Part shown: positions 16,923 to 28,080 of the stretch, piece by piece
How positions within the stretch are numbered: the stretch's first letter is position 1
Layout: every line of letters starts with the position of its first letter
Source: an uncultured Bacteroidia bacterium
GTDB taxonomy: Bacteria > Bacteroidota > Bacteroidia > Bacteroidales > Prolixibacteraceae
Reading direction: 5' to 3'
DNA: 52,494 nucleotides
Assembly: GCA_903905505.1 (NCBI GenBank)
Contig: CAIVGL010000102.1
Coordinates: 1-52,494, forward strand
Notes under the pieces: generated by a model
Database searches by the model: none
Told to the model about the DNA's origin: nothing
What the model saw: the letters and a program-made list of their open reading frames with translations, nothing else
Position numbers and translations under genes: made by a program

Positions 16923-18089
16923 TTATCTAATCGTGATTTTTTTCTCCTCGACTAGAAAATTTACTTCGTTTGTTTTTCCGATTAATTTGATCACTTCGCT
17001 AAAATCGGTATAGCGCTTTAAATCCCCAGTAAAACGGAAGTTTTTCAACTCTTCTTGCGAAAACACAACTTCTACATTGTACCATCTTGCTAAGGTTTCC
17101 ATAATCTGAGCCAATGGTTGATTAGTAAACACAAATCGACCACTCTTCCAAGCAATATATTGGTACGTGCCAACGATACGCTTTGAAATTTTTCCATTTT
17201 CTCTATTTACAGCCCCTTGCTCATTAACCTCTAAGGTCTGAACTTTGTCAGGACTTGTATTTGCAAACATGGCAACAGACCCTTTTACAAGGGTTGTTGT
17301 CACAATAGGATTCTCGGTATAAGCCGATATGTTGAACTCGGTACCAATATCTTTTACTGTCTGACCTCTTGATTCTACAATAAAAGGTGAATTTTCGTTG
17401 TGCGCCACCTCAAAATAAGCCTCGCCAGTTAATTCTACTCGACGTTCGTTAGCCCCAAATTGCGCTGGGTAACGTAAGCTGGTTTCAGAATTTAGCCATA
17501 CCTTAGTCCCATCTGCAAGTTCAAGAAAAAACTCTCCTCCTCTTGGAATCGTTAAGGTGTTGTATTTGATCTCCGCTGGAATCTGATTTTGTGCAGCGTA
17601 TTGTAGTTTTGCCCCTTCGCTTTTGATCACTGCAGCCCCTTCTTTTAAAACAATATGTTGCGATGGAGTTAAATCGTGAACCGTGCCATCCGCTAATTTT
17701 AAGGTCGCTTGATTGCTTCCTGGATGAATGGCTTCAGCTTTTATAAGGGCAATCGCATTGTCACTCTCTTTCTTCGTAACATGGAAATAGGTAAAATAGA
17801 CAAAAACTGCAATGGCCGCGGCTGCTGTTGAAATGATCCAGCTCGCTTGACGGTTATTCTTCTTTAATGTGGAATGCTTGAAATTATTCCATGCTTTGGT
17901 ACATTCAATTTTGCACGCTTCAAAACTGGCGCCTTGTGAATAATAGGTTGTTGCATTATTTAGAAATTCTTGGTGGCTAGCATCCTCTTTAAGCCATTTC
18001 GAAAGCGCAAGCTCTTCTTTGGCCGTCAAGGATAGATTTGCCTTTTTCCAGATAATTTCAAAATCAATCATAATGCGATTCTTGATCAT
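16923..18089 (-). CDS. FecR-family anti-sigma factor
   Basis: The 388-residue protein has a cytoplasmic N-terminal region (1-82) with a WL-rich helix that would bind the sigma factor, one membrane segment (about 84-103), a periplasmic FecR domain (about 180-275, including GEAYFEVAHN and GTEFNISAY) and a C-terminal DUF4974 domain (about 315-385, ending in a beta-strand that can pair with an STN domain). It keeps the ECF sigma factor inactive until the receptor signals substrate. ATG at 18087-18089; a second ATG at 18071 would remove six residues. The gene lies between the sigma gene and susC on the same strand, the standard Bacteroidota order. Confidence 0.95.
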   Translation of the reverse strand: MIKNRIMIDFEIIWKKANLSLTAKEELALSKWLKEDASHQEFLNNATTYYSQGASFEACKIECTKAWNNFKHSTLKKNNRQASWIISTAAAAIAVFVYFTYFHVTKKESDNAIALIKAEAIHPGSNQATLKLADGTVHDLTPSQHIVLKEGAAVIKSEGAKLQYAAQNQIPAEIKYNTLTIPRGGEFFLELADGTKVWLNSETSLRYPAQFGANERRVELTGEAYFEVAHNENSPFIVESRGQTVKDIGTEFNISAYTENPIVTTTLVKGSVAMFANTSPDKVQTLEVNEQGAVNRENGKISKRIVGTYQYIAWKSGRFVFTNQPLAQIMETLARWYNVEVVFSQEELKNFRFTGDLKRYTDFSEVIKLIGKTNEVNFLVEEKKITIR

Positions 18090-18303
18090 AGTCTATTATA
18101 TTATAGTTTAGGTATGACACACGAAAATACAAAAAGGGTGACAAAAGTTAAATAAATGTTAAAATAAAGTTTGTTTTCTTTTTGTTGGATTTTATAATTT
18201 AGGAATATACCACCCTCTTAAACGTGAAAAACTGGCTTGGAACACATTGGTTGTCATCATGTTTGGTGGTTTGATGTGCTTTGTGAGATAGGTGAGCTCT
18301 AGA

Positions 18304-18882
18304 TTAATAAATTATTATCAAAGCCAGTGCTAACATTAATTTAATCGCGTTGCGATTACCAAGGATTTTTCTTATTTTATCTTTGGCTCGTTGTAGTTGC
18401 GTTTTTATGGTATTTTCACTAACCTGGCTTAGATTTGCGATCTCTTTTAATTTTTTCCCCTCCAGATATTTAAGTCTGAATATTTCACTCATCTGTGGAG
18501 GTAATTGAGCTATGGCAGCGTTTATTTTAAGAATAACCTCAGGATCTGGAGTGTCTGAATGGTTTTCGTAATTCAGCTGCGTTTCTAGGTAGAGTAAGTT
18601 GTGTTTGTCGTGGATGTTTAAATCACGTAGATGATTGATGCACCGATTTCTGACCGACTCAAATAGGTAGGCTTTTATAGACAAGGTGAGATTGATCCTT
18701 TCGGCATTTTCCCAGAAATAGATAAACAAGTTCTGGACGATGTCTTCGCACTCTTGTTTATCGTATATGTAGTTTTCTGAAAATTTTACTAGCTGCGGGT
18801 AGTATTCGCGAAACAAAGCTTCGTAAACTTTTAGGTTACGATTCTTGATCTCTCCAAATAATATTTTATCTGTCGTTAACAT
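18304..18882 (-). CDS. ECF sigma factor (Bacteroidota RNA polymerase sigma-70 family)
   Basis: The 192-residue protein contains sigma region 2 (about 20-85, with DIVQNLFIYFWEN for core binding and -10 recognition) and region 4 (about 118-172, LPPQMSEIFRLKYLEG followed by a helix-turn-helix). The last 14 residues (179-192) are strongly hydrophobic, a tail seen in many Bacteroidota sigma factors paired with FecR. I chose the ATG at 18880-18882; a TTG at 18903 would add seven residues and is less likely. It should direct transcription of the SusC/D operon after a signal from the receptor through FecR. It is separated from fecR by 214 bp, so the two may have separate promoters. Confidence 0.94.
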   Translation of the reverse strand: MLTTDKILFGEIKNRNLKVYEALFREYYPQLVKFSENYIYDKQECEDIVQNLFIYFWENAERINLTLSIKAYLFESVRNRCINHLRDLNIHDKHNLLYLETQLNYENHSDTPDPEVILKINAAIAQLPPQMSEIFRLKYLEGKKLKEIANLSQVSENTIKTQLQRAKDKIRKILGNRNAIKLMLALALIIIY

Positions 18883-19561
18883 TTTAGGTAAATGGGAATT
18901 CAATTAGGTGATGTAAAAATAATTTTATTTACAACATCTTTTAACTTTTCAGTTCTTTTTTGTTTCGACAATGTCTATTCGATAATTAGACTCCAAAGAT
19001 CTGTTTCTCTTTCCGTTTCACCTATACCCTTTAATATGTATTTTTCTCATCCCTATTTATAGGTATCTCTTCGGGTGAAGTTTTTGTTGATTCTTGTTAT
19101 GTTATCATTAGGTTAAGAACAGTGTAAATGAAAACTCTTTGTTTGTTAATTTGTTCTTAATTTAAACCTTAATATCACAGCGATTCGATCAGGTATGATG
19201 AAAATCATTTTTCATTAAGTTTTAAATTCGAGTTGGTATAAGTTTTAAAAAAGAGTGCGAAAATTCCCATTGAATAGGGATGAATATTAAAATATAATTG
19301 TAATTTCGACCCCGTAATTAAAGGAGTTTTAGAGTGGAGTTCTCCTTGTCTAAGGCGCTGTTGGTTAGGTATCTATCGATAATTCTGAAAATATTTTCCT
19401 GGAATATCTAGGGGTATCATACTCCAATTTAGAGGGTTGAGAAATGGTTTTTAGCATAAAATTGGAACTAGATTTCAGCGTAATTTTTGATTTAAATAAA
19501 ATATTCGCTGCTTAAGAATAGTATTCACAAGTGGTGTAAACAGATAAATAGCACGTAATTT
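18883..19561. other. 679-bp divergent intergenic region (sigma gene / respiratory operon)
   Basis: This AT-rich stretch separates the leftward sigma gene from the rightward respiratory operon. I see no credible open reading frame and no tRNA. It contains a palindrome (19198-19215), a short hairpin (AAGGAG at 19321-19326 with CTCCTT at 19342-19347) and a TAATTTCG box (19301-19308) that differs by one base from the Bacteroidota -7 consensus but has no clear -33 partner. A long 5' leader for the respiratory operon is plausible. Confidence 0.6.
19198..19215. promoter_or_regulatory. Candidate regulator palindrome upstream of the respiratory operon
   Basis: ATGAAAA (19198-19204) and TTTTCAT (19209-19215) form perfect 7-bp arms with a 4-bp spacer. 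This is the size and symmetry of a dimeric repressor or activator site. It is 346 bp before the first gene. No specific regulator family can be assigned. Confidence 0.3.
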
Positions 19562-20530
19562 ATGAGTCAAAACAGTAAAGACGCAAGTCATGATCACGAC
19601 CATCCTGGGCATGATAGCACCAATTCTAGGCGTGATTTCTTTAAGAATTTTGGTTTATTCGGCGCAGTAGCTGCGGCAGGCGGTGCTGCTGTTTACACCG
19701 GTTATAAATATGAAGAGACAAAGCCGGGTGCTAATTTCGTAAGAGTTCTTACAGCCGATAACCGTATCATAGAAGTTCCGAAAGAGGGATTCAAAGATAT
19801 TAAGGTAGATCTTAATCAACTTCAAAAACAAGGTCGCGAAGGTCTAAAAGGGCACCGTTTTGTGATGGTTATCGACCTGGCCAAATGCCGTAATGCCCGT
19901 AAATGTATTACCGCTTGTCAAGGAGCTCACCACCTTCGTCCACACGAATACCATATTAATACCTTGGTTATGCAGGAGTCTGAGAATACAGCTCCCTATT
20001 TTATGCCAAAACCTTGTCAGCACTGCGATAACCCACCTTGTGTGGCCGTTTGTCCTGTTGATGCGACCTTTAAACGTCAAGACGGTATCGTGCTAATCGA
20101 TAATGAGCGTTGTATTGGTTGTCGTTTTTGCATTGCAGCTTGTCCATATTCCGCTCGTTTATTCCATTGGGAAGAGCCACTTGTGGTTGAAGCCGATAAA
20201 GGTACGCCATATAATATTGAACTAAATGTTCCTCAGCGCAAGGGAACAATCTCGAAATGTTTGTTTAGCTCTGACCGTCTTCGCGAAGGTAAGCTTCCTT
20301 ATTGTGTCTCTGCCTGTCCAAATGGGGTATACTATTTTGGAGATGAAAATCAAGATTCAGTAACCAATGGAACAACCAAAGAGACCTTCCGCTTAAGTGA
20401 ATTACTTAAGGTTAATGCGGGTTATCAATTGATGCCTGAGTTAGGGACGAAGCCACGTGTTTACTACCTGCCAGCAAAAAATAGATTGTTTGAATTTAAG
20501 GAGGATAAAGATCCCGTGCAGTCAATCTAA
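19562..20530 (+). CDS. Tat-exported four-cluster iron-sulfur protein (DmsB/PsrB/ActB2-like) with two altered cluster motifs
   Basis: The 322-residue protein starts with a His/Asp-rich segment (HDHDHPGHD, 10-18), then a twin-arginine motif SRRDFFK (22-28) and an alanine-rich hydrophobic stretch (31-49). It should face the periplasm. The four motifs of the family follow. Motif II is C152-C155-C160-C164 and motif III is C184-C187-C190-C194, both complete. Motif I has C109, C115 and C119 but Ala112 where the second cysteine belongs. Motif IV has C233, C248 and C252 but Ser236 in that place. In this family motifs I and IV jointly hold two clusters, so these may be [3Fe-4S], Ser-ligated or absent. 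It should carry electrons from the NrfD-like partner to cytochrome c. No catalytic molybdopterin subunit is encoded nearby. Confidence 0.9.
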   Translation: MSQNSKDASHDHDHPGHDSTNSRRDFFKNFGLFGAVAAAGGAAVYTGYKYEETKPGANFVRVLTADNRIIEVPKEGFKDIKVDLNQLQKQGREGLKGHRFVMVIDLAKCRNARKCITACQGAHHLRPHEYHINTLVMQESENTAPYFMPKPCQHCDNPPCVAVCPVDATFKRQDGIVLIDNERCIGCRFCIAACPYSARLFHWEEPLVVEADKGTPYNIELNVPQRKGTISKCLFSSDRLREGKLPYCVSACPNGVYYFGDENQDSVTNGTTKETFRLSELLKVNAGYQLMPELGTKPRVYYLPAKNRLFEFKEDKDPVQSI

Positions 20531-20609
20531 ACTTTGCAAGCAGTGCTCGTCGATATTTCGGTGTCGCTTGAAAATGAAATTATAGAAATTTAAATAAATA
20601 GAAAAAATT

Positions 20610-21956
20610 ATGGCGTCAGAAGTAAATACCGATTTTTTGCAGGACAAAAAACTCGATTCTATTGCAGCTGATATTTTAAGACCTGTTGGAATTACACAAG
20701 GATTTGTGGTGTGGATGGGATTCTTAGGGGTCTCCTTAATGGGTTGTATTTATGCCTATTATATTCAGTGGGATAAAGGTTTAATTGTTACCGGCTTGCG
20801 TGACTATATTAGTTGGGGGATGTATATTGCCAACTTTGTGTTTTTTGTCGCAACAAGTTTGGTCGGAATGCTTATTAGTTCGGTCCTCGGTCTGATCGGG
20901 TTTAAATGGGTGAAGCCTATCGCTCGAATTGCAGAAATCATCGCGGTAGCATTTGCAGCAGTTGCGGGACTGGTTATTGTTTCAGATATGGGACGTCCAG
21001 AGCGACTGGCAAATGTTATTCTCCATGGACGTATTCAATCCCCAATTATCTGGGATGTGACTGTTGTGACCACCTATCTTACAATCAGTATTTTACTTTA
21101 CTTTTTGCCTTTAATACCAGATCTTGCAATCAGTAAGGGGCGGATGAATCATACGCCCAAGTGGCTTCAGAATATGTATGAGGTGCTATCCGTAAAATGG
21201 CAACATACCCCTGAGCAATATCGCCTTCTACTTAAGGCAATTCGTATTTTATTAATCTTGATCATCCCAACAGCTTTTGCCATTCATACGGTCACATCTT
21301 GGCTTTTTGCCGTTACCCTTAGACCGGGATGGGATAGTACTATTTTCGGCCCTTACTTCCTTGCTGGAGCTTTTGTGGCTGGATCCGCAGCGGTGGTTAT
21401 TGTGATGTATTTTATCCGTTCAAACTATAAACTAGATAAATATCTTACCAATCATCATTTCGATATGATGGGTAAACTGTTAGTCTTAGTGTCAATCGTA
21501 TACTTGTATTTTAATATCAACGAATACCTCGTGCCATCTTACAAAATGAAAACGGCTGAGGCGATACATCTTCATGATCTGTTTGTCGGTGAATACGCCC
21601 TTATGTTCTGGAGTGTTCAACTACTTGGATTAGTTCTTCCAATTATCTTGCTGTTGTTTAGCTTCTTTCGGAAACCATTCTCGATGCTGGTTATCTCTAT
21701 CGTGGTGTTGATCGCAGCTTGGTTTAAACGATTTTTAATTGTAGTTCCAACACAAGATCATCCATTCTTGCCAATGCAATATGTACCGAAGGCTTGGATG
21801 GTTTATCAGCCAACGATTATAGAGACAGCTATTACCGTTGGAACATTGTTGCTAGTTATAATCATTATTACAATTCTTGTAAAGTTCTTTCCTGTGATTC
21901 CAATTTGGGAGATGGCAGAAGAGCAACATGAGTTAGACCATAAATCACAAAAATAA
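20610..21956 (+). CDS. NrfD/PsrC family membrane subunit, ActC-like quinol-oxidising protein
   Basis: The 448-residue integral membrane protein has about ten hydrophobic segments (roughly 30-52, 64-94, 104-127, 145-168, 212-236, 248-270, 287-310, 328-355, 358-380 and 401-426). Ten segments match ActC/ActF of alternative complex III better than the eight of PsrC. Segments such as DMGRPERLANVI and a KRFLIVVPTQDHPFLPM stretch near 379-395 are also typical of NrfD-like proteins of respiratory chains. These proteins bind the quinone at the membrane and pass electrons to the iron-sulfur partner. It follows the iron-sulfur gene by 79 bp and precedes the cytochrome c gene by 13 bp. A role in menaquinol oxidation is inferred from the operon. 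Confidence 0.9.
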   Translation: MASEVNTDFLQDKKLDSIAADILRPVGITQGFVVWMGFLGVSLMGCIYAYYIQWDKGLIVTGLRDYISWGMYIANFVFFVATSLVGMLISSVLGLIGFKWVKPIARIAEIIAVAFAAVAGLVIVSDMGRPERLANVILHGRIQSPIIWDVTVVTTYLTISILLYFLPLIPDLAISKGRMNHTPKWLQNMYEVLSVKWQHTPEQYRLLLKAIRILLILIIPTAFAIHTVTSWLFAVTLRPGWDSTIFGPYFLAGAFVAGSAAVVIVMYFIRSNYKLDKYLTNHHFDMMGKLLVLVSIVYLYFNINEYLVPSYKMKTAEAIHLHDLFVGEYALMFWSVQLLGLVLPIILLLFSFFRKPFSMLVISIVVLIAAWFKRFLIVVPTQDHPFLPMQYVPKAWMVYQPTIIETAITVGTLLLVIIIITILVKFFPVIPIWEMAEEQHELDHKSQK

Positions 21957-21969
21957 GCGCGAAATACCT

Positions 21970-22863
21970 ATGAAAAGATATTTTATCCTACTTATAATTG
22001 TCCTTTTTTCAATGCAGTTGTCGGCTCAAGAATGGGTTGTAGCTCCAGCTGAGGCAGCACTGAAGAGTCCCTTTGCGTTTACTGATTCAACACGTAAGGC
22101 TGGGGAAGTAATTTACGTGGCTAATTGTAAATCGTGCCATGGTGATCCGGGAAAAAATAACGTCATTCAATTAGTCCCAATACCTCCGGATGCTGCTTCT
22201 GTAAAAATGCAAGCAAATACAGATGGTGCCTTACATTCTAAGTTAATTCAAGGTCGTGGGGCAATGCCATCCTTTAAGAATACACTCTCTTCAACTGATC
22301 TTTGGCGTGTTATCTCATTTATGAGAGGCTTTAATCCTAAATATGTGCAGGAGGTTGCGGTCCCAACGATTGGGAGTGCTTCTGCTCAAAATGTATCCAT
22401 TAAATTAAATTGGAATAAAACAAGCGGGCAAGTTGAAGCTTTACTTACCTCACTTAAAGAGAATATTGCTCAGCCAGTGGCTGGTGCAGAAGTAAAACTT
22501 TTTGCCAAACGTTTTTTCGGCAATCTTCCTATCGATGAGGCACGTAAGTCTGATGCGTTAGGTAAAGTTTCTTTTAATTTCCCGAAGGATCTTCCTGGAG
22601 ATTCAATAGGAAATGTTCAACTTGTTGTTAAGTTAACCGATGAAGTTGCATTTGGAGAGGCCTCAGCTGAAGCAAATCTAACTGTTGGTGTACCAACAAA
22701 TCGTCCAGCCTTGACTGATCAGCGTTCCATGTGGGGTGTGCTAGAAAAGTCGCCAGTCTGGCTTATCTTTGCGTATGTTTTGGCTGTCTTAACTGCCTGG
22801 GGCTTTATTGCTTATGTAGTTCTTCAGATCAGAGCGATCTACCGTGCTGGTAGTAAAGAATAG
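21970..22863 (+). CDS. Membrane-anchored monohaem cytochrome c
   Basis: The 297-residue protein has a Sec signal peptide (cleaved after LSAQ, residue 20) and a class I cytochrome c domain (about 40-125) with the haem motif CKSCH (53-57) and probable axial Met99 in RGAMPSF. A beta-sandwich domain follows (about 138-245, with PVAGAEVKLFAKRFFG and a DLPGDSIGN turn), then one C-terminal membrane anchor (about 262-285). The haem domain faces the periplasm and is in position to carry electrons from the iron-sulfur/NrfD pair to the CuA-cytochrome c subunit of the oxidase encoded downstream. The role resembles ActE of alternative complex III, though ActE is a lipoprotein and lacks this architecture. 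Confidence 0.9.
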   Translation: MKRYFILLIIVLFSMQLSAQEWVVAPAEAALKSPFAFTDSTRKAGEVIYVANCKSCHGDPGKNNVIQLVPIPPDAASVKMQANTDGALHSKLIQGRGAMPSFKNTLSSTDLWRVISFMRGFNPKYVQEVAVPTIGSASAQNVSIKLNWNKTSGQVEALLTSLKENIAQPVAGAEVKLFAKRFFGNLPIDEARKSDALGKVSFNFPKDLPGDSIGNVQLVVKLTDEVAFGEASAEANLTVGVPTNRPALTDQRSMWGVLEKSPVWLIFAYVLAVLTAWGFIAYVVLQIRAIYRAGSKE

Positions 22864-22892
22864 AAGTGGATGCAATCTTAATTTTCAGAGAG

Positions 22893-23672
22893 ATGAAAAA
22901 GTTAGTGTTAATCATTTTACTTGGTATCTTAGGTCTTTCGACCTATGCTCAAACGCCGGTTCAACGCGACGTTGAGATTGGAATTATGGAGCGACTAGGC
23001 GAGACGATTCCGCTAGATCTTAAATTTCTAAATGAAAACAATGACACGGTTACCCTGGGTAGCCTAATCAAAAAACCGACTATTCTCTCCTTTGTTTATT
23101 TTGATTGCCCTAGTATTTGCAGCCCTCTTTTAGATGGTGTGTCAGAAGTGGTCCGCTTGATGGATCTCTCTCTAGGAAAAGATTATGATATTATTACGAT
23201 AAGCTTTAATACCAAAGATACGCCGGAGAAAGCTCGGGAGAAAAAGCAGAACTTTGTTCAGAAGATCAAAGAAGCTGATCGCTCTAGTTGGTATTATCTT
23301 ACAGGTGAATTGCCAAATATACAGGCAATTACAGAGGCTGCTGGATTTCGTTTTAAGCCACAAGGAGTTGACTTCGCACATCCCGCAACCATTATCATGT
23401 TAAGTCCAACGGGTAAGATTACCCGTTATCTATATGGTACTAACTTCCTTCCATTTGATGTGAAGATGGCCGTAGTCGAAGCTCGGAAAGGATTGGCAAG
23501 CCCAACAAGTTCTAAAATCCTCGACTACTGCTTTGCTTATGATCCACGTGGCCGAAGTTATACTTTGCAAGTTACCCGATTAATGGGCACTTTTTCCTTA
23601 ATCGTAGGGTTCTTTTTTGTCGTCTATTTATTCATCTCATCCAGAAGAAAATCATCTAAAGAAGTAAAATAA
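22893..23672 (+). CDS. sco: SCO1/SenC-family copper chaperone
   Basis: Starting at the ATG 22893 gives 259 residues with a signal peptide (1-20, ending STYAQ). An upstream GTG at 22866 would place nine residues ahead of it and is unlikely. The thioredoxin-fold domain has the copper-binding DCPSICSP motif (Cys72, Cys76) and the distal His163 in DFAHPAT. A C-terminal membrane segment lies near residues 228-248. SCO proteins metallate or reduce the CuA site of cytochrome oxidase subunit II, and that subunit is encoded four genes later. The stop codon overlaps the start of the subunit I gene (TAATG at 23670-23674), indicating translational coupling. Confidence 0.94.
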   Translation: MKKLVLIILLGILGLSTYAQTPVQRDVEIGIMERLGETIPLDLKFLNENNDTVTLGSLIKKPTILSFVYFDCPSICSPLLDGVSEVVRLMDLSLGKDYDIITISFNTKDTPEKAREKKQNFVQKIKEADRSSWYYLTGELPNIQAITEAAGFRFKPQGVDFAHPATIIMLSPTGKITRYLYGTNFLPFDVKMAVVEARKGLASPTSSKILDYCFAYDPRGRSYTLQVTRLMGTFSLIVGFFFVVYLFISSRRKSSKEVK

Positions 23673-25291
23673 TGAATAATCAAGTATCTGCCGAACCGTT
23701 AAATTACCTCAATCATAAGACCGGGCTCTGGTCGTGGTTGACGGCTACCGATCATAAGCGTATCGGACTGCTGTATCTGTATGCTATTACCATATTCTTC
23801 TTGACCGCCGCTGTCTTAGGAGTGCTTATGAAGATTGAAAAATCTACCATAGGTCCAACTATTATGACGGCTCAGACCTATAATGCATTGTTCACCTTGC
23901 ATGGTATTATTATGATTTTTATCGTCGTGATTCCTGGTCTAGCTGCTGTTTTCGGGAATATCTGCCTTCCGATCATGATTGGAGCAAAGGATGTGGCCTT
24001 TCCAAAACTGAACCTATTCTCGTTCTATGTTTATATCACAGGTGCTTGTCTAGGTTTATATAGCCAATTTGCGAACGGTCACTCTCCAGATGCCGGTTGG
24101 ACCTTCTATGTCCCCTATAGCGCCGAGGTCAATTCGAATATTATTTTAGCCTTATTGGCCGCCTTTACGCTGGGATTTGCCTCTATCCTGACTGGATTAA
24201 ATTTCATTGTAACGATTCATCGTATGCGTGCACCAGGGATGACCTGGTTTAGAATGCCGCTATTCCCTTGGTCGTTATATGCAACGGCTTGGATTCAACT
24301 TTTGGCCACTCCAGTGGTCGGAATTACCCTGTTGATGGTCATTGCCGAACGGACTTTGCATGTGGGATTCTTCGATCCGAAACTTGGTGGAGACCCAGTA
24401 TTGTACCAACATCTATTCTGGATCTATTCCCATCCAGCTGTTTATGTCATGATCTTGCCTGCAATGGGTGTGGTAACAGAGATCTTCCCTACCTTTAGTC
24501 AGAAACCGGTCTTTGGATATCTTCCAATCGTATTCTCAAGTTTGGCTATTGCCCTAGTGGGGTACTTTGTTTGGGGTCATCATATGTTTACTTCAGGAAT
24601 GAGCTATGAATCACGTTGGTTCTTCTCGTTTATAACCTTCTTAGTGGCTATTCCTAGTGCGATAAAAGTCTTCAACTGGCTCTCTACCATGTATGGTGGA
24701 TCAGTGGATCTTCAACCTCCGCTTTTATATGCGATCTCATTTATCTTCTTATTTACGATTGGTGGATTTACGGGTCTTACCCTTGGAGCTGTCGCTACTG
24801 ATATCCATGTACATAATACTGATTTTGTGGTCGCTCACTTCCACTACATTATCTTCGGCGGTATGGGCTTTGGATTCTTTGCCGCCATGCATTATTGGTA
24901 CCCCAAAATTTATGGTCGGATGTATCACATTAAATGGGCTAACATAGCATGGGGTTTCCTATTTACAGGCTTTAATATTCTTTACTTCCCAATGTTTGTT
25001 ATGGGGATCCAAGGTATGCCTCGTCGTTATTACGATTATGATCCTAAATTTCAATTGGGTCAAACGATCTCCTCAGTGGGAGCAGTGATCTTATTTATTG
25101 GTTTGATAGCCATGATTACAAACCTAGTTTATCATGTGCGCAGAGGTGCTAAAGCCTCTGCAAATCCTTGGCATGGCGTAACGCTGGAATGGCAAGTTCC
25201 ATCACCTCCACCTCATGAAAATTTTGATGAGATTCCAGTTATTACGCGTGAACCTTATGTCTTTGACAACCCATATACTAAAGAAAAATAA
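23672..25291 (+). CDS. ctaD: Cytochrome c oxidase subunit I, A2-type
   Basis: The 539-residue protein has twelve or more membrane segments and all metal ligands: His77 and His391 for the low-spin haem, His389 for the active-site haem, and His254, His303 and His304 for CuB, with Tyr258 for the His-Tyr cross-link. Residues 252-258 read YSHPAVY. The Glu of A1-type oxidases is replaced and a Tyr-Ser pair precedes the His, the hallmark of A2-type enzymes such as caa3 of Thermus and Rhodothermus. It reduces oxygen and pumps protons. The start codon overlaps the SCO stop by one base. The haem O synthase at the operon end supports haem a or o at the active site. Confidence 0.98.
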   Translation: MNNQVSAEPLNYLNHKTGLWSWLTATDHKRIGLLYLYAITIFFLTAAVLGVLMKIEKSTIGPTIMTAQTYNALFTLHGIIMIFIVVIPGLAAVFGNICLPIMIGAKDVAFPKLNLFSFYVYITGACLGLYSQFANGHSPDAGWTFYVPYSAEVNSNIILALLAAFTLGFASILTGLNFIVTIHRMRAPGMTWFRMPLFPWSLYATAWIQLLATPVVGITLLMVIAERTLHVGFFDPKLGGDPVLYQHLFWIYSHPAVYVMILPAMGVVTEIFPTFSQKPVFGYLPIVFSSLAIALVGYFVWGHHMFTSGMSYESRWFFSFITFLVAIPSAIKVFNWLSTMYGGSVDLQPPLLYAISFIFLFTIGGFTGLTLGAVATDIHVHNTDFVVAHFHYIIFGGMGFGFFAAMHYWYPKIYGRMYHIKWANIAWGFLFTGFNILYFPMFVMGIQGMPRRYYDYDPKFQLGQTISSVGAVILFIGLIAMITNLVYHVRRGAKASANPWHGVTLEWQVPSPPPHENFDEIPVITREPYVFDNPYTKEK

Positions 25292-25298
25292 TAGATTT

Positions 25299-25928
25299 AT
25301 GTCAACAACCGAACATTCTGAGCATTCTGAACATAGCGAATATATAGATGTCGAAACCGGCAAAATGGGGATGTGGTTATTCCTATTTACGGAGTTATTT
25401 TTATTTGGCGGACTATTTATCGTTTACGCAGTTATGCGTGCTAAATATGGTGAGGACTTTCACCATGCTGCTCTTGAACTTAATGCATTTATTGGTGCAA
25501 CAAATACAGTCGTTTTACTCGTTAGTAGTATGACCGTGGCGATGTCCTTAACTGCGATTCAAAAGAGTCAAAAGAACTTAGCTGTAGGTCTAATCTTTGT
25601 GACTCTGATCTTAGCTGGTGTCTTTATGATCAATAAATATTTTGAATACGGCCATAAATTTGAATTGCACCTCTATCCAGGATCTGATGTGATGCGTAAT
25701 TTGCCTCCCGGAGAGATTATGTTTTTCGGTCTCTATTTCTTAATGACTGGACTCCATTTATTTCACGTGGTGGTAGGAGGAATATTGCTTACTATCATTA
25801 TGCTTCGGGTGAAATCTGGCAAGATCAATAAAGAGCATTTCTTATTACACGAGAATGGTGCGCTTTACTGGCATTTGGTCGATTTAATTTGGATCTTCCT
25901 CTTTCCTTTATTGTATTTAATAACCTAG
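25299..25928 (+). CDS. ctaE: Cytochrome c oxidase subunit III
   Basis: I chose the ATG at 25299, seven bases after the subunit I stop, giving 209 residues; an earlier in-frame start would overlap subunit I by about 77 bp. The N-terminus carries a short repeat EHSEHSEHSE, then the conserved GMWLFLFTELFLFGG motif and five membrane segments. It ends with ALYWHLVDLIWIFLFPLLYL, where the WHxVDxxW signature of subunit III is clear. The five-helix length fits a short subunit III in which the first two helices of the mitochondrial form are absent. It stabilises the proton-pumping core. Confidence 0.96.
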   Translation: MSTTEHSEHSEHSEYIDVETGKMGMWLFLFTELFLFGGLFIVYAVMRAKYGEDFHHAALELNAFIGATNTVVLLVSSMTVAMSLTAIQKSQKNLAVGLIFVTLILAGVFMINKYFEYGHKFELHLYPGSDVMRNLPPGEIMFFGLYFLMTGLHLFHVVVGGILLTIIMLRVKSGKINKEHFLLHENGALYWHLVDLIWIFLFPLLYLIT

Positions 25929-25945
25929 CATTCAGTTTGGAATGC
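25928..25945 (+). other. Small hairpin overlapping the subunit III stop codon
   Basis: GCATTC (25928-25933) and GAATGC (25940-25945) pair perfectly around a 6-nt loop, starting at the last base of the stop codon. There is no T run, so this is not a terminator. An mRNA-stability or processing role inside the operon is possible. Confidence 0.35.
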
Positions 25946-25989
25946 CTGAAGAGATAACGCTATACTTATAGAATTAAAGCATTAATAAA

Positions 25990-26277
25990 ATGGAAGATCA
26001 TCACGACAATCATATAACGAGTTACGCGCAAAACTTTAAAGTTTTGTTTGTTTTGCTCTTGTTAACCATCTCGACGATTTTGGTAGTTAAATTAGACCTT
26101 GGTATATATACATTGGCCATGGCCCTATTTTTAGCTTCGGTTAAAACTACAATCGTACTAACCTATTTTATGCACCTAAAGGGTGAAAAACTTATTTTGC
26201 GTTTGATGGTAGGCGGCGTATTTTTACTATTCGCTATTATCGTCATCATAACATTTATTGATTATTACTTCAGATAA
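25990..26277 (+). CDS. Cytochrome c oxidase subunit IV (caa3-type small subunit)
   Basis: The 95-residue protein has three membrane segments (about 16-34, 37-58 and 68-92) and the TYFMHLKGE motif of the prokaryotic subunit IV family. The N-terminus is His-rich (MEDHHDNHI). It is a small non-catalytic subunit of caa3/aa3 oxidases. It lies between the subunit III and subunit II genes, with 61 bp before it and 11 bp after, so it is part of the same transcript. Confidence 0.9.
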   Translation: MEDHHDNHITSYAQNFKVLFVLLLLTISTILVVKLDLGIYTLAMALFLASVKTTIVLTYFMHLKGEKLILRLMVGGVFLLFAIIVIITFIDYYFR

Positions 26278-26288
26278 TTTAAAAAACT

Positions 26289-27218
26289 ATGACAACAATG
26301 TTCTCTGGAGCATCCAATTTTGCAGAAAGTGTCGATCGCGCATTTATATTTATTTTCGCGATATCTTTCATTTTTACGATAGGTATTACTGTGGCAATGA
26401 TCTATATTGTTATTCATTTTTCGAGAAAAAGGAATAAGAATCCACAGCAATTTAGTGGGAACGTACCATTAGAGATTATATGGACCGTTGTTCCATTGAT
26501 CTTGGTATTGTTTATGTTTTACTATGGCTGGGTGGCCTTCGCTCCTATGCGTAAGGTTCCTCAGAATTCCATGCAGGTGAAAGTGATTGGCCGGATGTGG
26601 TCGTGGAGTTTTGATTACGGCAATGGGAAAATTTCACCCGATTTAGTGGTTCCATTGGATCGAAATGTAAAGCTTAATCTTTTCTCTGAAGATGTAAATC
26701 ATGGCTTGTTTATTCCAGCTTTTAGAGTTAAAGAGGATGTGATCCCTGGTTATAATAACTATTTATGGTTTCAGCCTATAGCGAAAGGGAAATACGATAT
26801 CTATTGTACTGAATATTGTGGTTTGGCTCACTCCGCGATGGTTGCTAAAGCTATCGTAGTGGATAGTCTTGAATTTAAGACTTGGTTAGCAGATCTTAAG
26901 GTAGTAAGCAATGACCATCCTGGTATGGCTGTCTTAAAAGCGAATGCCTGTATAACCTGTCACTCACTTGATGGCACAAAAGTTATTGGGCCTTCATTTA
27001 AAGATATGTTTGGGGCTAAACGCACTGTGCTAACAGACCAGGGTGAAAAGGAGGTTGAAGTAAATGCTGACTATATAAAAAGAGCTATAGTTGATCCGAA
27101 TGGCGAAATTGTAAAAGGCTATAATAAAGGGCTGATGCAATCGTATAAAGATGTCCTTAAGGCAGAAGATATTGATAAAATCGTAGATTATTTCAAGAAA
27201 TCTAGTGAGCAAAAATAA
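26289..27218 (+). CDS. ctaC: Cytochrome c oxidase subunit II with fused cytochrome c domain (caa3-type)
   Basis: The 309-residue protein has two membrane segments (about 18-42 and 64-84) and a cupredoxin domain with all CuA ligands (His138, Cys173, Glu175, Cys177, His181, Met184) and the aromatic WSWSFDY patch (104-110). A C-terminal cytochrome c domain carries CITCH (221-225) and probable axial Met283. The fused haem defines a caa3-type enzyme. Electrons probably arrive from the membrane-anchored cytochrome c encoded upstream. No cleavable signal peptide is obvious; the first helix is probably kept as an anchor. The gene overlaps the next one by 14 bp. Confidence 0.97.
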   Translation: MTTMFSGASNFAESVDRAFIFIFAISFIFTIGITVAMIYIVIHFSRKRNKNPQQFSGNVPLEIIWTVVPLILVLFMFYYGWVAFAPMRKVPQNSMQVKVIGRMWSWSFDYGNGKISPDLVVPLDRNVKLNLFSEDVNHGLFIPAFRVKEDVIPGYNNYLWFQPIAKGKYDIYCTEYCGLAHSAMVAKAIVVDSLEFKTWLADLKVVSNDHPGMAVLKANACITCHSLDGTKVIGPSFKDMFGAKRTVLTDQGEKEVEVNADYIKRAIVDPNGEIVKGYNKGLMQSYKDVLKAEDIDKIVDYFKKSSEQK

Positions 27219-28080
27219 CCGTATTCCAAATTTTGATGTCCTAATCCGGTTGACCAGACTGCGACTTTCGCTGATGGTCACCATCTCTGCGACCACAGGT
27301 TATTTTCTGACCGGTAGCGCACCTAGTTGGGCTGTGCTTTATCTTTTTGGAGGGGTCTTCTTCTTAGCTGCGGGTACAACAGTCCTCAACCAAGTTCAAG
27401 AAAGCAGGCGCGACGGCCTTATGCCTCGTACCAATCATAGACCCATTCCTTCAGGCGAAATTTCTAGCTCGTCAGCTTTAATCATTTCTCTGGTTCTTCT
27501 GGCTTTTGGTACATTGCTGCTAGGGTTAAATGGTTGGCTTCCGATGGTCTTGGGATTGTCAAATATCGTATTCTATAACCTGATCTATACTCCACTAAAA
27601 ACACGTAGCTGGCTTGCTATTATTCCAGGAGCCGTCGTTGGTGGCGTTCCTCCATTGATCGGATGGACCTCTGCTGGATTTTATATCTTTCATCCACATG
27701 CCATGTTTGTGGCCATCTTTGTATTTCTTTGGCAAATACCCCATTTCTGGCTGTTGATGATTAAATATGGGAAAGAGTATGAGATGGCTGGCTTCTCTTC
27801 AATCTCAAAGACGCTAAACGAAGGGCAAATCAAACAAGTCGTGTTCTATTGGGGCGTTATAACCTCTGTTTTCTTAATGCTATTCCCATTCTTTGATTTT
27901 AATTTCAAGCCACTTTTATTGGTGTTTCTGGTGGGTATGAACTTCGGGTTTATCTTGCTGTTTCATCGCTTCCTTTTCGGAGAGAAGAGTGGTAAAACTA
28001 TTCATAAAGCATTTATCCTGATTAACTCTTACGCGTTAATGGTATTCTTGCTGTTGGTTTTTAATGCGTTGATCTCGTAG
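27205..28080 (+). CDS. cyoE: Protohaem IX farnesyltransferase (haem O synthase)
   Basis: The 291-residue UbiA-superfamily protein has about eight or nine membrane segments. The first polyprenyl-diphosphate site reads NQVQESRRD (N-x3-E-x3-D), followed by a RTNHRPIPSG stretch; Glu in place of the first Asp is common in this phylum's members. It converts haem B to haem O for the oxidase encoded upstream. The start is GTG at 27205, inside the 3' end of the subunit II gene (14-bp overlap). The next Met is too far inside the first helix. A haem A synthase is not in this window, so whether the enzyme is caa3 or cao3 cannot be told here. Confidence 0.95.
   Translation: MSKNNRIPNFDVLIRLTRLRLSLMVTISATTGYFLTGSAPSWAVLYLFGGVFFLAAGTTVLNQVQESRRDGLMPRTNHRPIPSGEISSSSALIISLVLLAFGTLLLGLNGWLPMVLGLSNIVFYNLIYTPLKTRSWLAIIPGAVVGGVPPLIGWTSAGFYIFHPHAMFVAIFVFLWQIPHFWLLMIKYGKEYEMAGFSSISKTLNEGQIKQVVFYWGVITSVFLMLFPFFDFNFKPLLLVFLVGMNFGFILLFHRFLFGEKSGKTIHKAFILINSYALMVFLLLVFNALIS

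Follow-up and report, generated by a model that had tools for sequence, protein, structure and literature searches.

The closest described counterparts of the locus analysed here are electron-transfer systems in which a quinol-reactive membrane protein of the NrfD family works with an iron-sulfur protein. NrfD/iron-sulfur pairs acting alone toward periplasmic proteins are already known (PMC6303296), as are molybdopterin-free NrfCD proteins that donate to cytochromes (PMC3534657), to go by the accessible portions of both papers. For alternative complex III (ACIII; ActABCDEF), the available part of PMC8552683 leaves open whether the ActB iron-sulfur chain past the first cluster carries current or dead-ends. 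Here we describe a nine-gene operon at positions 19562..28080 of contig CAIVGL010000102.1 (assembly GCA_903905505.1; 52,494 nucleotides, hereafter the window) from an uncultured Bacteroidia bacterium of the Prolixibacteraceae. Its first three genes encode an iron-sulfur protein (FeS), an NrfD protein and a cytochrome c, together referred to as the module, and the others encode a caa3 oxidase and its assembly proteins. Judged from gene content and conservation, the module is quite probably a membrane-bound menaquinol:cytochrome c oxidoreductase that takes the place of complex III in supplying the caa3 oxidase of its operon.

All nine genes lie on the forward strand, separated in order by 79, 13, 2, -1, 7, 61, 11 and -14 bases, and the neighbours on both sides are on the reverse strand. 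Pfam and NCBIfam assignments give the order FeS, NrfD, cytochrome c, SCO, CoxI, CoxIII, CoxIV, CoxII and haem O synthase, the same strand and sequence of genes as in the original prediction, with coordinates that agree except for the starts of CoxIII and SCO. The oxidase has the traits of a caa3 enzyme: subunit II carries CuA and haem c, and subunit I has a YSHPxVY-type motif, which we take to be a mark of type A2 haem-copper oxidases. CuA and haem c are present in CoxII in 67/67 complete frames (some loci counted twice).

An oxidase of the caa3 type whose subunit II bears CuA and haem c depends on a cytochrome c reductase. The source genome assembly (2.90 Mb, 97.3% complete) has a single NrfD match (PF03916), which is the window gene, no match to ActD (PF11821), and none at E ≤ 1 to cytochrome b (PF00033) or to molybdopterin oxidoreductase (PF00384, whose detection of ActB was unchecked). 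The need for a reductase and the lack of ActD, cytochrome b and a molybdenum oxidoreductase together support the module in this role. The predicted absence of ACIII parts thus holds for ActD, for a second NrfD (ActF) and for the molybdopterin-like domain; no multihaem, ActA-like gene lies in the operon, and the genome was not searched with an ActA-specific model. Complex bc1/b6f does the same job of passing electrons from quinol to cytochrome c with unrelated proteins, including the cytochrome b that went unmatched, whereas reductases of the Psr/Dms type (CISM) use a molybdopterin catalytic subunit of the kind sought with PF00384. A hidden ACIII elsewhere in the genome was considered and rejected, as the NrfD, ActD and molybdopterin profile searches turned up none. 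The genome has three genes for haem-copper subunit I: the window CoxI, a cbb3 CcoNO (contig C125) and a gene for a NorB-like nitric oxide reductase (C113). The cbb3 genes, CcoNO and a CcoP-like gene, occupy a 4.3 kb contig with no module adjoining.

In the proposed mechanism, menaquinol would bind NrfD near the periplasmic face, and the closest cluster of the Tat-exported FeS would oxidize it. From cluster to cluster the electrons would reach the anchored monohaem cytochrome c, and from there haem c and CuA of subunit II and finally oxygen. We infer that the three proteins form one complex through which electrons move in this direction, that each of the four clusters is assembled and takes part, and that the complex contacts the oxidase. 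Since there is no multihaem wire in the operon, a working complex would have to send its electrons through the iron-sulfur chain.

The window NrfD (PF03916, 108.6 bits) is encoded beside an FeS with four cysteine motifs, and its alignment with ActC, which has ten helices, spans ~400 residues. Among solved structures at E ≤ 1 it matches ActC and ActF only, the top match being 8k9e_C (E 3.7e-48). Residues D126, S144 and D149 align with ActC His139, Ser164 and Asp169 (numbering from the accessible part of PMC8076601) and are invariant in 23/23 rows, so that the conserved quinol-site Ser (S144) and acidic/His residue (D126, in transmembrane helix 2) are both present. S144 and D126 also fall at the positions of QrcD S138 and D120, and QrcCD shares the ten-helix NrfD class in the grouping given by the available text of PMC6303296. 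Qrc differs in reducing menaquinone and in its hexahaem QrcA. The NCBIfam model closest to NrfD is DsrP (128.2 bits, 350 needed), against which one ActC tested reaches 58 bits.

The Tat motif of FeS is SRRDFF, and the protein should therefore be periplasmic. Its nearest NCBIfam profile is DsrO (180.3 bits, 200 needed), and its best match among solved structures is PsrB. The DsrO-DsrP pair thus gives the closest profiles for both proteins and also shares a cytochrome c companion and an Asp at the quinol-site position in transmembrane helix 2. DsrMKJOP differs, however, in that both equivalog cut-offs are missed, the companion cytochrome is monohaem rather than the trihaem DsrJ, and the module sits in an oxygen or nitrate chain rather than in sulfur metabolism; no DsrM, DsrK or DsrJ is among the nine operon genes (the rest of the genome was unsearched for them). 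NrfD shows both DsrP-type and ActC-type traits, and the safest statement would place it as an NrfD module between DsrOP and ActC. Dimeric NrfCD modules are alike in combining a quinol-reactive membrane protein with a four-cluster protein for periplasmic electron delivery; to these the present module adds a dedicated anchored monohaem cytochrome, a repeated association with caa3, cbb3 or Nap genes, and a distinctive cysteine pattern.

That pattern is a loss of the second Cys in motif I (Ala) and motif IV (Ser) of the window FeS, with motif III intact (CIGC); these two cysteines are present in DsrO. The motifs were read at 114 places (the window, 42/48 family loci and 71/80 loci of the wider set described below), of which 107 are distinct in DNA. 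No reading was made for six loci of the kind found in genus g3, where FeS lies elsewhere, or for nine loci of the wider set: L115 and L133 have no FeS beside NrfD, L129, L147 and L176 are cut by the contig, L145, L159 and L179 are broken, and L120 did not match the pattern. Read frame by frame, FeS is interrupted by a frame break in both L145 and L159 and by an in-frame stop in L179, three contigs that belong to metagenome-assembled genomes. In L158 and L169 its frame is open. The second Cys of motifs I, III and IV reads A/C/S in 101/107 distinct sequences, and the remaining six are V/C/S (two, both stand-alone modules), C/C/C (three) and A/C/C (one). The four carriers of C/C/C or A/C/C are relatives at about 44-52% identity. 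These loci (L106, L107, L108 and L201), with all cysteines kept or only the motif I Cys lost, have different gene surroundings and look like earlier stages of cysteine loss.

By the NarH scheme, the two clusters distant from the quinol presumably belong to motifs I and IV, and the two near it to motifs II and III. Because the second Cys is missing in motifs I and IV, the far clusters would have three Cys each and the near ones four, and the far pair is consistent with [3Fe-4S]. In ACIII, by contrast, the [3Fe-4S] cluster sits near the quinol (PMC8552683, accessible part).

The window cytochrome has a single CKSCH haem motif in a domain that matches c552 proteins and Rhodothermus marinus ActE (6f0k_E, E 1.7e-14). 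Its middle domain (residues about 130-250) is conserved and has no Pfam name, with weak Ig-like matches in 3/43 members.

Conservation of the operon was followed in 140 genomes of the same GTDB family. In the source genus (g1), 16/18 genomes have a window-type NrfD at 79-100% identity, and the remaining two are 64% and 68% complete. The nine genes stand in order in 12 of the 15 source-genus relatives (the last gene is cut in L081); the other three loci run off the contig, L069 before SCO is reached. Elsewhere in the family, in genera other than these, the module is followed by a cbb3 operon in nine loci (L093-L097, L099, L100, L104, L105) and by napA genes in a further four (L090-L092, L098), and Pfam confirms the cbb3 genes in L093 and both NapA and NapB in L090. 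In five of the nine cbb3 loci, and in L187, the module and cbb3 genes are divergent from SCO-caa3 genes. For three loci of genus g2 (L101, L102, L103) no oxidase or Nap partner was identified, and a second, distant FeS-like gene (34% identity) lies about 6.5-8 kb downstream.

A scan of one genome per species (84,980 species) gave at least 588 pattern matches and at least 474 relatives, from which the best 80 loci were taken. Eight coincide with family loci (seven by identical FeS DNA, the eighth being L115), and ten were classed by reading open reading frames (ORFs). Seventy-seven come from Bacteroidota or a group within it, and three are labelled 'uncultured bacterium'. The nine-gene order, whose conservation was to be checked, is intact in 47/80, and a further 13 are caa3-linked but partial or with one gene undetected, making 60/80 caa3-linked. 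Among these 13, the contigs of three run out after SCO, L147 and L176 start at NrfD, and L177, counted as partial, lost its cytochrome through an overlap in parsing. NrfD identity to the window falls as low as 59% among the complete nine-gene loci. The rest of the 80 comprise cbb3 (5), cbb3 with caa3 (3), Nap (2), module alone (3), NrfD-cytochrome without FeS (2) and contig ends (5). The stand-alone loci (L135, L157 and L181) have no partner in ~10 kb downstream. In L150, L161 and L166 the module is followed by cbb3 genes and these by SCO and caa3 genes, all in one co-directional run. The isolate Marinifilum flexuosum has one module by Nap (L162) and a second by cbb3 (L164). The caa3 enzyme is thus not the private partner of the module.

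A phmmer probe with L090 NapA and the molybdopterin-like portion of one Planctomyces ActB, run over 1537 frames of at least 200 residues in 128 loci (L069-L188, L195-L202), addressed the possibility that a molybdopterin partner accompanies the module in most relatives. It found NapA only, in six loci (L090, L091, L092, L098, L162, L188), although remoter molybdoenzymes could escape it. In these loci Nap is the electron acceptor of the module. Among plasmids, 35 records hold relatives, all below 60% identity, and the one examined (Planctomyces) carries a canonical ACIII-caa3 operon. Of 395 genomes sampled evenly across the phylum, ten, the source genome included, have a module-type NrfD (>500 bits); two further NrfD score 378-380 bits and one 279, and the other listed matches, at most 267 bits, are probably ActC. 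One genome of this sample has two module-type NrfD ~2.5 kb apart (G292:C1:1165909-1171010), possibly tandem modules.

A quick NrfD tree (92 rows, LG+G4, SH-aLRT support only) combined the window, 74 loci of the 80-locus set, 15 chosen family loci and two ActC, with no DsrP; the five contig-end loci and L177 (short frame) were excluded. The 64 caa3 rows and the four rows without FeS form one set (support 98), as do the Nap rows (99), the cbb3+caa3 rows (100) and the stand-alone rows (90), and the cbb3 rows occupy one side of a weak branch (44). Partner labels change 8 times for 8 labels, against a mean of 27.3 when shuffled. The NrfD tree thus sorts by redox partner. Two full-cysteine relatives branch outside the module NrfDs, with ActC further out. 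In its varied surroundings, the FeS-NrfD-cytochrome c unit behaves as a portable module. Comparative genomics lends good support to the earlier idea of a three-subunit quinol:cytochrome c oxidoreductase that has no molybdopterin and feeds the caa3 oxidase; the exclusive tie to caa3 has to be given up.

Several observations weigh against the proposed function. In the quinol site, ActC Asp253 is replaced by Leu232 in the window NrfD, and the conservation of D126 is weak support because QrcD D120A, changed at the same position, retained 68% activity. In QrcC, Tyr113 is essential and its Phe variant inactive (PMC13059093, accessible part). FeS F189 (in CIGCRFC) appears, by reading, to correspond to it, because Tyr113 is described as lying between two near-cluster ligands and Thermus PsrB has Ala there in the alignment. 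In 5/6 genomes of genus g3 the oxidase operon reads FeS-cytochrome-SCO-Cox, and NrfD with a second cytochrome c is placed away from FeS (L084-L088, L195-L200). The sixth, G024 (94% complete), has FeS-SCO-Cox without the cytochrome there, and no NrfD of module type was detected in it. In L084 the g3 NrfD locus adjoins a divergent FAD/4Fe-4S oxidase. Finally, the C126 cluster of the source genome, described below, is a possible second quinol oxidizer, on a quinol-to-periplasm or extracellular route.

ActD occurs in 76/140 family genomes, in 0/22 with the caa3-type module vs 76/118 others, the 22 being 16 g1 genomes recognized by NrfD (caa3 link visible in 15) and six g3 genomes recognized by FeS-SCO-Cox. 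Because these carriers are two related genera, the contrast amounts to few independent events. In the 80-locus set ActD was surveyed in the first 50 genomes, leaving 30 uncovered, and is above cut-off in three: 2/41 caa3-linked (L148 and L149, whose genomes carry both) and the cbb3-linked L158, with L134 below cut-off. It is also found in 5/9 cbb3-linked and 3/4 Nap-linked genomes of the family. A general exclusivity of module and ACIII is thus not upheld: beside caa3 the module usually, but not always, stands in for ACIII, and with cbb3 or Nap it often coexists with it.

Of the alternative explanations, the one that survives best, though we consider it unlikely, is a degenerate ACIII that has lost ActA, ActD, ActF and the molybdopterin-like domain of ActB. 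The two systems share the proposed reaction, the best structure match of NrfD is ActC, the haem domain of the cytochrome matches ActE among others, and canonical ACIII operons likewise precede SCO and caa3 genes, as on the Planctomyces plasmid. However, the module operon lacks the pentahaem ActA, the ActB molybdopterin-like domain, ActD and ActF; ACIII has two NrfD proteins (ActC and ActF) where the source genome has one; and FeS is a separate Tat protein in a module that also serves cbb3 and Nap. The profile scores favour DsrO for FeS (180 bits) and DsrP for NrfD (128 bits vs 58 for one ActC). The missing cysteines also differ: FeS keeps the motif III Cys absent from ActB and is without two that ActB has, R. 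marinus ActB reading C/T/C at the same positions in the alignment. In the tree, which had no DsrP, the module NrfDs and the two full-cysteine relatives stand apart from the two ActC rows. Descent from ActB and ActC parts is accordingly not established.

Less probable still is that the caa3 oxidase is fed by a cluster on contig C126, leaving FeS-NrfD-cytochrome c as an accessory or assembly unit. PF14522 has four matches in the source genome, two of them in this cluster and the others on C123 and C31. At ~58.7-66 kb of its contig the cluster encodes a NapC/NirT hexahaem protein, two monohaem cytochromes c, a b561, a heptahaem cytochrome and a five-haem cytochrome; it is not an act operon. The components for such a route are therefore present in the genome, and the g3 genomes, where NrfD stands apart from FeS and from the oxidase operon, would fit it. 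The cluster is, however, on a different contig from the operon, with no oxidase gene seen among the ORFs of the 18 kb read around it, and the nine-gene linkage kept in 47/80 best loci, the conserved quinol-site residues and the cluster motifs speak for a redox role of the module.

We give slightly less weight again to the opposite sense or another donor, in which FeS-NrfD would reduce menaquinone from a periplasmic donor and the cytochrome c would be a separate donor to the oxidase: the relative QrcCD does run from cytochrome c3 to menaquinone (PMC6303296 and PMC13059093, as far as accessible) and 3/80 best loci have no oxidase nearby, but the commonest neighbours are oxidases, with Nap in 2/80, all of which draw electrons from cytochromes c, NrfD and the oxidase genes have the cytochrome gene directly between them, and no recurrent periplasmic dehydrogenase was noticed in nine loci with ORFs listed, where no systematic search was made. 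Chance or mis-annotation is ruled out because the gene order is conserved in the genomes of relatives and the family scores are strong.

The coordinates of the nine genes are collected in Table 1. A Bacteroidota-type promoter pattern has 3 matches in the window vs 3.6 expected, none of them 5' of the operon. Upstream on the opposite strand (16923-18903), FecR-like and sigma-factor-like proteins are followed by large ORFs that look outer-membrane-like by eye.

Table 1. Genes of the module-caa3 operon in the window
Gene product	Position	Strand	Remarks
FeS	19562..20530	+	Tat-exported four-motif iron-sulfur protein, DsrO-like, 322 aa
NrfD	20610..21956	+	Membrane protein of a quinol-binding family; aligns with ActC, scores with DsrP
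Monohaem cytochrome c	21970..22863	+	ActE-like haem domain, middle domain without Pfam name, C-terminal membrane anchor
SCO1/SenC copper-site assembly protein	22866..23672	+	Real start probably an ATG a few codons inside the listed GTG
Haem-copper oxidase subunit I (CoxI)	23672..25291	+	YSHPAVY motif
Oxidase subunit III (CoxIII)	25299..25928	+	Most likely start 25299 (MSTTEH); ORF-list start 25215 falls inside CoxI
Oxidase subunit IV	25990..26277	+	caa3 type, TIGR02229 above cut-off
Oxidase subunit II (CoxII)	26289..27218	+	CuA motif and C-terminal haem c domain (CITCH)
Haem O synthase, CtaB/CyoE-like	27205..28080	+	179 bits vs 210 for the NCBIfam equivalog cut-off

The three-gene unit with its partners and its cysteine pattern was not found described in the literature searched, which was mostly outside subscription journals. 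A bolder extension of the menaquinol:cytochrome c oxidoreductase proposal, plausible but falling a little short of an even chance, is that the module represents a further, so far unrecognized class of complex III: an exchangeable three-protein reductase in which all current would run through a four-cluster wire, the far clusters, each retuned by losing a single cysteine, would be high-potential [3Fe-4S] exits toward a monohaem cytochrome c, and separate branches would be specific to caa3, cbb3 and Nap. If the proposal is true, the question of the ActB chain can be put to the test in a natural system of small size. The step of quinol oxidation, otherwise missing in Bacteroidota in which caa3 is seen without ACIII or bc1, would also be filled, and one donor module would have been adapted to three acceptors, caa3, cbb3 and Nap.

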